From Pseudorasbora parva (taxonomy: Eukaryota; Chordata; Actinopteri; Cypriniformes; Gobionidae): a stretch of 64,000 bases of DNA. The notes beneath the pieces were generated by a model that saw nothing but the letters and a program-made list of their open reading frames with translations, had not been told where the DNA came from and made no database searches. The position numbers and the translations under genes are program-made. Where the stretch lies: positions 13,839,233 through 13,903,232 of the forward strand of contig NC_090184.1 in assembly GCF_024679245.1 (NCBI RefSeq), read 5' to 3'. How positions within the stretch are numbered: the first letter of the stretch is position 1; every line of letters starts with the position of its first letter. Of this stretch, positions 18,284-54,883 are shown piece after piece.

Positions 18284-18325
18284 GTGGGTGAGATTGAAGG
18301 AGACTGGCTGCGAGAGTTCTTCACG
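18284..18325 (+). CDS. inpp5a: inpp5a-like exon (corresponds to human exon 2)
   Basis: The 42-bp exon encodes VGEIEGDWLREFFT, with acceptor cctcag and donor gtgagt. It is phase 0 at both ends. The DWLREFF core matches NWLREFY of INPP5A. The preceding residues differ, which supports a diverged paralog. Confidence 0.85.
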
Positions 18326-21300
18326 GTGAGTTTCATCCATACGCTCACATCTGATGCTATAATGTATAATAGTGAAAAAACTAAACAGCACAAGCTCTTT
18401 ACTGTTTTAAGTCACACGGACATCTCTTTGTCAGAGCTCTCCATCTGTTTAAACATGTTATAAACACACATACACACCTTTGCAGAGTGAACTTTACTCT
18501 GTTAAACAGTCACTGTGAACCTAAAGGTGTTTGCCTCATTTATACAACCTGTCTTTGGTACACCATAAAATCATGCTGTTGTCACGTTGTGAACAAAAGT
18601 TGAATCACAGATTTTCCTACTACAAAATCTCTGCATCTAATGCATACAAAATCTGTTACCTTATATTTGAATTGTCTTTGGTCGTCTTTTTGCCTGGTAA
18701 CATTGTTTGTGCAACTTAATTATCAAAGATAGCAATAAAAAAAAGTAAGTTAAAGGTAGGGTAGGTAAGAATTGGTTAAAAAACTTTTTTGTCCAAATTT
18801 GTTTAAACGTTCTTAATATATCAATACATAATTAAAATGTAAGTACTCTAAAAAAGAAAGTATAAAATGTGAGTGTCTGTAGACCTCTCACAACTGTTTT
18901 AAAGACAGCTCATTATTTCCATTCACTCCACCTTCTCCCTTCTGGCCTCTTTCCAAAGCCACGCCCCCAAAATACATGAACTCGCTACACCAACCGCTCA
19001 GTTGGAAGATGCATTATTTACCTGAGATGAGCAGTGTGCATGTAGTGACATCATGTCAGAATCACATGTAATAAAACATCTAACTTTATCAGTATGAATA
19101 TAAACAAATAAGAGTCTTTTAGTACTCACTATCAAGCTCGAATACCGATACTGGTAAAGTTTAAAATATATTTTTGTTTAATTCGGTAACAAGCTAGTTA
19201 TATTTATAAGGCAAGGCTAAAAACGAGTAGCATTGATAAAAAAACTTTTCCCAATAACATCAGTTATAGTGTGATGAAGATGAATTTTGTGTAAGATTCA
19301 TAACATATACTGTGTTTTGCATGTAAGAGTTTCAATGATGAAAGCGTTGTTGATTAGTAGTAGCTAAAGCTAACTTAGTTCTAAAAAAAAGTTCCTGGAT
19401 GCGGTGGACTAGCTTTTACACATGCATTTTGTTATCTAAAGTTAAATTTTGCAAAATTCAACACAACAGCGATCAACTTGAACTAAGCACATTGAGTATT
19501 TATCATCTCTAAGTGTATAATATTGTAATATTGTAAGGCAGCTACATGTGCTCTTGATACATGCTTCATGAAAACATAAACCAAAAAAATGTATAATCAA
19601 AATGAAAGATTACCTGTCCAGCAGAAATACAGCCAGCAATGAGTCGTTTTTCAGTCCCTTAAGGTCCCTCAGTTCTCACCATCGTTTGATTTCTTTGTTT
19701 ATCCAAAGACTTTTTATGCATTGTAGTGACTTTACATGTAGGCCTAGTGTCTTCCTTTTTTTTGCATTGTTTGCCTTCGCTGACTGCAAAACCTGGCACC
19801 GTGCATTTTGAATGCTTTTGCTCTTTCTAGGGGTGCGCGCATGTGTGGGCAGAACCTGTAGCGAAAGCGGTGGTCGCTATGGTAGCGAGAGAGAATGGCA
19901 GTCGCCCAAGCCAATCGCTTGTTTCGTCCCGAACGAAAATAATGAGCGTCGTTTATTGCAGATTAAAAAGTCTAGAATCACTTGATTTTTATACTCTCTT
20001 TTTCAGAGTACTTACATTTTAATTATGTATTGACATATAAAGAAAGTTTAAAGAAATTTGGGCAAAATTGTTTTAGATCATTCTTAGCTACCCCACCTTA
20101 AAATTTAAAATACACTTGCCTCAATATATTTTTCTATAACAATTTACAAAAAAATATCCATGTTGAAATGTGCTACACAAACTATTAATGTCAGAACAAT
20201 GTTGACTTTCCTTAAATCGTATGCTACATTCTAATTGTTAGTCCTTTTTGGGTTAGGTGCTATTATATAAATTCTACACCTACGTGACAGTACAGTAGCT
20301 ACTTTTATTTGAAATATATTTTTTAAAGGGGTGGTTGCATGCGATTTCACTTTTTTAACTTTAGTTTGTAATGTTGCTGCTTGAGCATAAACAATATCTG
20401 CAAAGTTACAGCGCTGAAAATTCAATGCAAACTGAAAAATGGCCGGTTTGGACTACAAAGAGCTTCTTCCCGGGTTGGTGACATCATAAACCCCTGCTAG
20501 TCACCGCAGATGTGACTTCTGCCCGTAATGGTAAGGGGCGTGGCGTTTCCGGACAACCTGTGCTTGGCACTTCAGCCAATAAAAATACATGAAACTACAT
20601 TTGGCCATCTAACCAATCTAAGACCATTGCGTTTTTTGGAGGGATGGGCTTTATAGAAGCAGGAAGCAAACGAGCCGTTCAAAGGACAGTGGAGACAGTG
20701 GTGTGGAATAAAGGTAAAATAAAATAAAAATACGCTGTTTAAAAAAAAAAAGAAGTATTAAGACCTGTTATACTGCGCCCCATAAACACAACCAAGCGTA
20801 GAAAAAAAACACGGAACCACCCCTTTAATATTATTCTTGTGATTTTATCAATTTAATTAATTCAGTGATAAACACTAGTGAATGAATTGTATGTCTAATG
20901 TCAATTTTATCATCTTAGGCGGTCCACATGTACAAGCCACGCTTCATCGCTCTGCACTTTCAGGAAGTTGGTGGAAAGGACTACATGGTGAACATGGGCC
21001 ATGCAGAGAACTTTTTCTGGTGAGGATATGGCAAATTGTGTGCCATAAATGAGTCAGCTTATTGGCACAATGTCAGTGTCAGATGGTACCAGACCATTGA
21101 TTACCGAGTTTATATACCATGGTATACATCTGGGGTGGGGAACGTTGATCCAGAAGGGCCACTCTCTTGCAGAGTTTAGCTCCAACCCTGAACAAAAACA
21201 CTCACCTGCCTGTAACTTTAGTAATTCTGAAGACCTTGATTAGCTTCAGGTGTGTTTGATTAGGGTTGAAGCCAAACTCTGCAAGAGAGTGGCCCTTCTG

Positions 21301-53937: not shown

Positions 53938-54004
<67 letters not shown>

Positions 54005-54883
54005 GTTTATATATATTATATATTTTTTATATATTGTTTACTGAAAAAACAGTCATTTGAAATAACATCCACAACCTTTTTATTTAAATTTAATTTACAT
54101 TATTTAACATTGATTCGTAAATCGTGTAACATTTCCACTGAAATCTTAAAATAATAAACTGTTTAATAAGTTAAGATGTTTTTTCATAATATGTTTACTG
54201 AAAAATAGTGAAATATTGTTCACGTCCTTATAATTAAATAAAATGTACATCATATACAGTCAGCTACACTACTAATAATCACACTAACTGGACTAATATT
54301 TGACCTTATCTCATCGAGTGAGGTCTTTAAATACAGTCTAATTGCTTTTTTTGTATGATATACATACAATTTCCATAAATTTACTAAATGGTAGGTAAAT
54401 TAGTATTACATAACACTCTGTCAAATTAATCAGAGTACTTCTTCTGTCTTGCAGAGACTTACTGTTGCCACACTGCTGTCTCGCTCCTCTCCACTCATAT
54501 CCTCCATCCACCCAGCAGCTGCTGCCTCCTTTGCCCTTCATACCCGAACATTCAACACCAGGTTTAGGGAAAGCGGTCAGTCCCGATGGGGCGTAATCCC
54601 GATTATAATACACCCCTGGACTGGGCACAGCTGTCCCAAAGCCACCCATGGAGGGGTACCCGGACAATAGCGCAGGGGTTCCCGGGCCGCCCATCATGGA
54701 TCGACTCAGGATGTCACTGATGCCATGCGGAGTGCCAGCCTGGAGCTGAGAGTTGAGATTGGCATGGCTGAGCTTGTAGAAGGAGTTGGGAATGGAGTAC
54801 TGGCACACCGGGGCCTTGATGTCTGAGGGGAACTGGTTCAAGCTGTTGTTGAAGAGGAAAGACCCTGAAATATTGGACTCCAT
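52141..54883 (-). CDS. nkx6.3: Homeobox transcription factor Nkx6.3
   Basis: Three exons (54883-54463, 53285-53116, 52371-52141) splice with GT-AG junctions into 273 codons plus a stop. The start MESN and the order of blocks match NKX6-3 rather than NKX6-1 or NKX6-2: KAPVCQYSIPNSFYKLS (23-39), TPHGISDILSRS (51-62, the eh1-like Groucho-binding TN motif), LLSGYP (72-77), CWVDGGYEWRG (123-133), homeodomain at about 152-211 (HTRPTFSGHQIF to VWFQNRRTKWRKK), then the acidic tail with EYNKPLDPDTDDEKI. In vertebrates NKX6-3 is a nuclear repressor acting in gut and hindbrain cell fate. All key homeodomain residues (W48, F49, N51, R53) are present. Convergent with the inpp5a-like gene. Confidence 0.97.
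52696..53019. mobile_element. MITE in nkx6.3 intron 2
   Basis: The left end GGGATAGTTCACCCAAAAAT and the right end TTTAGGGTGAACTACTACCC are inverted, with 'gttgaacacaaaagaagata' inside. It occupies almost half of the 744-bp intron (52372-53115). Confidence 0.8.
53116..53285 (-). CDS. nkx6.3: nkx6.3 exon 2 (homeodomain, first part)
   Basis: The 170-bp exon runs from acceptor CTGTAG to donor AAA|GTAAGA. It encodes NGGHHTETAGKKK then HTRPTFSGHQIFALEKTF through GMTESQVK, homeodomain helices 1-2 and the start of helix 3. The split between K and VWFQN is the classic NK-class intron position. Confidence 0.97.
53940..54001. repeat. (TA)n microsatellite in nkx6.3 intron 1
   Basis: About 60 bp of TA in a generally AT-rich intron (53286-54462), which otherwise shows no recognised feature. 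Confidence 0.95.
54463..54883 (-). CDS. nkx6.3: nkx6.3 exon 1
   Basis: The 421-bp coding part runs from the ATG at 54883 to donor ACA|GTAAGT. It holds the N-terminal region and the TN/eh1-like motif and ends after the first base of codon 141. The start is chosen because MESN is the NKX6-3 family N-terminus. Confidence 0.95.

Follow-up and report, generated by a model that had tools for sequence, protein, structure and literature searches.

A 64,000-nucleotide stretch of the Pseudorasbora parva genome (the window) carries INPP5A-like exons on the plus strand and NKX6-3-like exons on the minus strand, both located with tblastn. The protein encoded by the first gene, P0001 (392 residues), was recovered in a protein search under the NCBI name INPP5A. 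Judged by its sequence, the gene is a real, separate INPP5A paralog and not the one-to-one ortholog of INPP5A; it is provisionally named inpp5a2. On balance, it is probably an old paralog, most likely a block duplicate from the two rounds of vertebrate genome duplication (2R), and its product a 5-phosphatase of soluble inositol phosphates that lacks a membrane anchor.

Two clades of INPP5A-like proteins

Three protein searches, each listing the best 120 of 1062, 1106, and 1193 matches, together listed at least 246 proteins: 126 resemble the window protein; 120 resemble human INPP5A; and none is doubtful. (Identities and bit scores to human refer to working copies of the human INPP5A, NKX6-3, and NKX6-2 sequences.) A careful tree was built from 58 rows, 29 of each kind, hand-picked out of the 246 plus human INPP5A. 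The paralog and canonical INPP5A form two separate clades, with support of 100/100 and about 1.0 change per column between them, and the window protein falls among the cyprinids of the paralog kind. The suggestion of an earlier note, that the window holds a second INPP5A-family gene, is thereby borne out: the protein does not group inside teleost INPP5A.

Both kinds are present in at least 14 other fish species among the matches listed. In all 14 they lie on contigs of differing size (34.9 versus 37.7 megabases in grass carp, 48.3 versus 31.6 in eel), although these figures are given per cluster and a few could stem from another cluster member. The two grass carp proteins are 53% identical to each other, whereas canonical INPP5A is 80% (grass carp) and 81% (shark) identical to the human protein.

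The gene is intact. Exons 2 to 15 occupy 18284-40526 on the plus strand. Each of the 13 exons from 2 to 14 (18284..40371) is preceded by AG and followed by GT, and together they form a single open frame of 359 codons; exon 15 is preceded by AG and ends in a stop. The 14 exons combined encode 372 residues plus the stop, 100% identical to residues 21-392 of P0001. The figure of 372 residues given earlier is thus correct for the part inside the window. Searches of the 64-kb window with human and exact fish peptides did not recover exon 1 (20 residues); since the window contains no N, this exon presumably sits beyond its left edge, before base 1. A pseudogene is ruled out by the intact exons, splice sites, and open frame.

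Canonical entries with internal deletions provide a view of the introns. Fifteen such entries represent ten kinds of deletion. For five kinds (10 of the 15 entries), the deletion limits fall exactly where the window gene has exon borders, matching seven borders in all: 20/21, 34/35, 97/98, 153/154, 237/238, 269/270, and 294/295. The other five kinds match no border, and three of these are altered N termini. The coinciding borders indicate that the introns are shared and therefore that the copy was made of DNA; an origin as a retrocopy is ruled out.

Age and origin of the duplication

The nkx6.3 gene comprises three exons on the minus strand (54883-52141) and encodes 273 residues. Its product matches human NKX6-3 (305 bits, 62% identity) better than NKX6-2 (197 bits, 46%). 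By sequence, the gene is nkx6.3: it has an NK6 homeodomain together with N and C termini of the NKX6-3 type. Exon mapping places the two genes as the earlier note had described them, convergent, with their stops facing each other across 11,614 bases. No further gene was seen between the stops, besides one transposase fragment, in a domain scan of seven reading frames chosen from the window.

Human INPP5A and NKX6-2 are arranged tail to tail as well. This suggests a model in which the block holding one ancestral INPP5A-NKX6 pair was copied during the vertebrate 2R, after which the paralog stayed tail to tail with nkx6.3 and INPP5A with NKX6-2. The 2R date comes from this common NKX6 neighbourhood; the trees do not reject a later, ray-finned duplication. 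Map positions in one source place human NKX6-2 at 10q26.3 and NKX6-3 at 8p11.21 (PMC2211742); in birds, INPP5A and NKX6-2 are listed together on the same side of CFAP46 (PMC10445033); and NKX6-3 was earlier assigned, in another paper, to a 2R block with Nkx2.6 and Nkx3.1 (PMC2446394).

The most substantial alternative, unlikely though deserving real weight, is a duplication confined to ray-finned fishes: a copy arising before the gar-teleost split, brought next to nkx6.3 through transposition or segmental copying, and then diverging fast. For such a copy to end up next to an NKX6 gene, of which there are few, and in the tail-to-tail orientation of INPP5A and NKX6-2, would by a rough estimate take a coincidence of about 1 in 10,000. 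Distances also speak against it, the gar paralog being equally far from canonical INPP5A of human (54.6%), reedfish (54.8%), and shark (54.6%). With the paralogs as outgroup, moreover, shark branches off first within canonical INPP5A, the pattern expected of a duplication that preceded jawed vertebrates. This rooting appears in the 58-row tree (85/60) and in a slimmer tree of 40 of those rows (91/86), from which fast-evolving fish and human were left out.

Several observations pull the other way, and weigh against a 2R date. Among the best 120 matches listed per search there is no paralog from a tetrapod, shark, sturgeon, or bichir, and the 106 of 126 listed paralogs that carry a species name are all ray-finned, judged by those names. 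(In one of the listings, a shark, coelacanth, or tetrapod copy far below 75% identity to gar would fall outside.) A quick tree was made under a simpler model from 118 of the 126 paralogs (those of 380 residues or more) and six canonical rows. In its printed portion, four of the remaining 20 sit with ostariophysans, and none joins gar or lies beyond the main teleost group. Support for the position of the root is weak, and in the quick tree shark clusters with lungfish and bird, leaving the ray-finned rows at an open base of canonical INPP5A. Approximately unbiased (AU) tests do not reject a tree joining the paralog to ray-finned canonical INPP5A (p 0.375 with 58 rows; 0.14 with 40), nor one joining it to teleosts (0.323) or to sarcopterygians (0.43); joined to tetrapods (0.522), the tree scores slightly above the free tree. 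Six columns diagnostic for ray-finned canonical INPP5A divide three with ray-finned, two against, and one other. Finally, the long stem, with its roughly 1.0 change per column, fits rapid change after copying.

Pfam scores used as a stand-in for an outgroup are too close to be of use (62-66 bits for canonical, 57-58 for paralog, five proteins each). The position of gar among the paralogs varies: within a group of seven rows that is surrounded by an open base (58 rows); first branch (40 rows); and again inside in the quick tree, in which clupeid paralogs stand at an open base. Sequence alone is compatible with either a 2R or a ray-finned date. One part of the earlier proposal of a paralogous block stands, namely a separate gene beside nkx6.3 that is older than the gar-teleost split; its dating to the vertebrate duplications is unproven, given the AU results for the ray-finned tree.

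An origin in the third, teleost-specific genome duplication is barely credible: the paralog is widespread in teleosts, but gar (P0034) and bowfin (P0121), which did not undergo that duplication, also carry it, so the paralog is older.

Predicted enzyme and missing anchor

By sequence, the paralog belongs to the INPP5A (type I) subfamily of 5-phosphatases. It contains the Pfam domain and, in predicted structure, the catalytic fold. AlphaFold supplied with 35 paralog rows alone reached a mean predicted local distance difference test score (pLDDT) of 43; with 138 rows including canonical proteins, the predicted template modelling score (pTM) was 0.84. Residues Q49, E50, R336, R343, and D377 are invariant in these 138 rows, and G224, D225, N227, F228, and R229 nearly so. 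The paralog keeps residues matching human D384, R343, and R350, along with the QE and GDFNFR motifs. Human R343 and R350 are taken here to be catalytic.

It is improbable that the enzyme has switched substrate or lost activity and is no longer an inositol 1,4,5-trisphosphate (IP3) 5-phosphatase. Such a change could be accommodated by the 24 columns fixed differently in the two clades, versus 149 fixed alike, and by the poor prediction of model residues 254-277 and 318-339; the latter stretch includes R336, which tells against the favoured reading of the enzyme. However, the catalytic motifs are invariant, or present in at least 90% of rows, across both clades.

The C terminus is where the paralog departs from the main form of INPP5A. 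None of the 126 listed paralogs ends in a CaaX box, whereas a C-terminal CCaaX is present in 67 of the 120 listed canonical entries, a count that takes in isoforms. In the main isoform of canonical INPP5A, this CCaaX is the site for palmitoylation and farnesylation. The paralog tail lacks both the CaaX box and the Cys pair, and in the predicted structure the protein ends three residues past the last core strand. No CaaX exon was found downstream of 40526 with the human tail as query; the best match, at 45032, contains a stop.

The best reading of these features is that the paralog is an IP3 5-phosphatase working in soluble form or in the nucleus, and that it probably ends a calcium signal. Its substrates would be soluble inositol phosphates, namely Ins(1,4,5)P3 and possibly also Ins(1,3,4,5)P4, from which it would remove the 5-phosphate. 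Lacking farnesyl and palmitoyl anchors, it would act in the cytosol or nucleoplasm, not at the plasma membrane and endoplasmic reticulum, and would govern IP3 in the cell at large or in the nucleus rather than dampen signals at membranes close to receptors.

Lack of the anchor is not unique to the paralog, a point against the favoured reading: canonical INPP5A also has isoforms without CaaX. An alternative tail (GAGK-xCQR...) was recognized by pattern in 28 of 120 canonical entries, from lungfish, frog, lizard, teleosts, and mammals (for example P0211, P0189, P0168, P0185, and P0229). Shark P0183 has a similar CaaX-less tail that the pattern missed. A broader scenario, possible though decidedly tentative, would give the gnathostome ancestor a pair of INPP5A genes, both with an NKX6 gene as tail-to-tail neighbour. 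The second would have been lost in tetrapods and kept in ray-finned fishes as a dedicated anchorless, partly nuclear 5-phosphatase of IP3 and inositol tetrakisphosphate (IP4). In fishes, two genes would then share out the anchored and the soluble role, between which canonical INPP5A switches by alternative last exons.

Gene layout, naming, and related enzymes

Exon 2 of the paralog (18284..18325, like all its exons on the plus strand) is identical to P0001. Exons 3 to 14 were placed by tblastn and splice sites: exon 3 (HFQEVGGK), 20919..21019; exon 4, 21503..21590; exon 5, 27526..27589; exon 6, 32403..32506; exon 7 (KWSRKG), 34318..34370; exon 8 (NVHLFHDASN), 34707..34826; exon 9 (GDFNFRL), 36282..36360; exon 10, 36447..36542; exon 11, 38316..38390; exon 12, 38477..38550; exon 13 (NTRCPAWCDRIL), 40022..40133; and exon 14 (MGDHK), 40303..40371. 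The last, exon 15 (PVFLFFPLKTTAH, then the stop, with no CaaX box), was placed at 40485..40526 by its match to P0001. Near the start of exon 9 (36282-36310), the P. parva paralog lacks the SY of NSYSPLPFF, residues present in grass carp P0004; the two proteins have 392 and 394 residues, respectively.

The nkx6.3 exons, all on the minus strand, were likewise placed by tblastn: exon 1, with the start ATG at 54883, 54463..54883; exon 2, with most of the homeodomain (PF00046), 53116..53285; and exon 3, with the homeodomain end and C terminus, 52141..52371.

Repeats are scattered through the window. A minisatellite at 15086-15613 (27-base-pair unit, 19.6 copies, 97% matches) lies upstream of exon 2, presumably in intron 1, and has long open frames on both strands. 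Two minus-strand transposase fragments were found: one with a Sleeping Beauty-type HTH_SB domain in intron 4 (26125-26427), and one with a DDE_3 domain between the paralog and nkx6.3 (49205-49552). Upstream of nkx6.3, a retrotransposon gag domain (PF03732, 62382-63044, plus strand) lies in a stretch of 53% GC. A GTGT/GTGA simple repeat array spans 59065-59405.

The shared name deserves comment. NCBI applies "inositol polyphosphate-5-phosphatase A" to both kinds in grass carp and others, and by that name the window gene would be a plain fish ortholog of INPP5A. This is very improbable in light of the fully supported separation of the clades and the co-occurrence of both forms in one species after another. 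Because databases name two different enzymes alike, expression and knockout data for fish "inpp5a" may mix anchored and anchorless IP3 phosphatases. A literature search, judged mainly by title, found no published work on a second INPP5A gene, and gene-tree databases may already show the duplication. To genome-evolution specialists this is a neat, unstartling retained duplicate. If of 2R age, the pair offers a natural case for the role of the INPP5A membrane anchor and would also mark the paralogous blocks around the NKX6 genes.

Among known 5-phosphatases, the closest comparison is with canonical INPP5A, the type I inositol 1,4,5-trisphosphate 5-phosphatase. The paralog is 54% identical to the human protein, and the two have in common key catalytic residues, the seven exon borders, and an NKX6 neighbour; the paralog differs in forming its own clade and in having nkx6.3, not NKX6-2, beside it. 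The CaaX-less isoforms of canonical INPP5A resemble it in lacking a C-terminal CaaX, but their tails diverge after GAGK through an apparent alternative last exon, whereas the paralog stops earlier, and the search downstream of it yielded no tail exon. INPP5B, OCRL, INPP5E, and SHIP1/2 are more distant, with about 18-22% identity to the paralog in structural alignments, and none of their extra domains was found in it.
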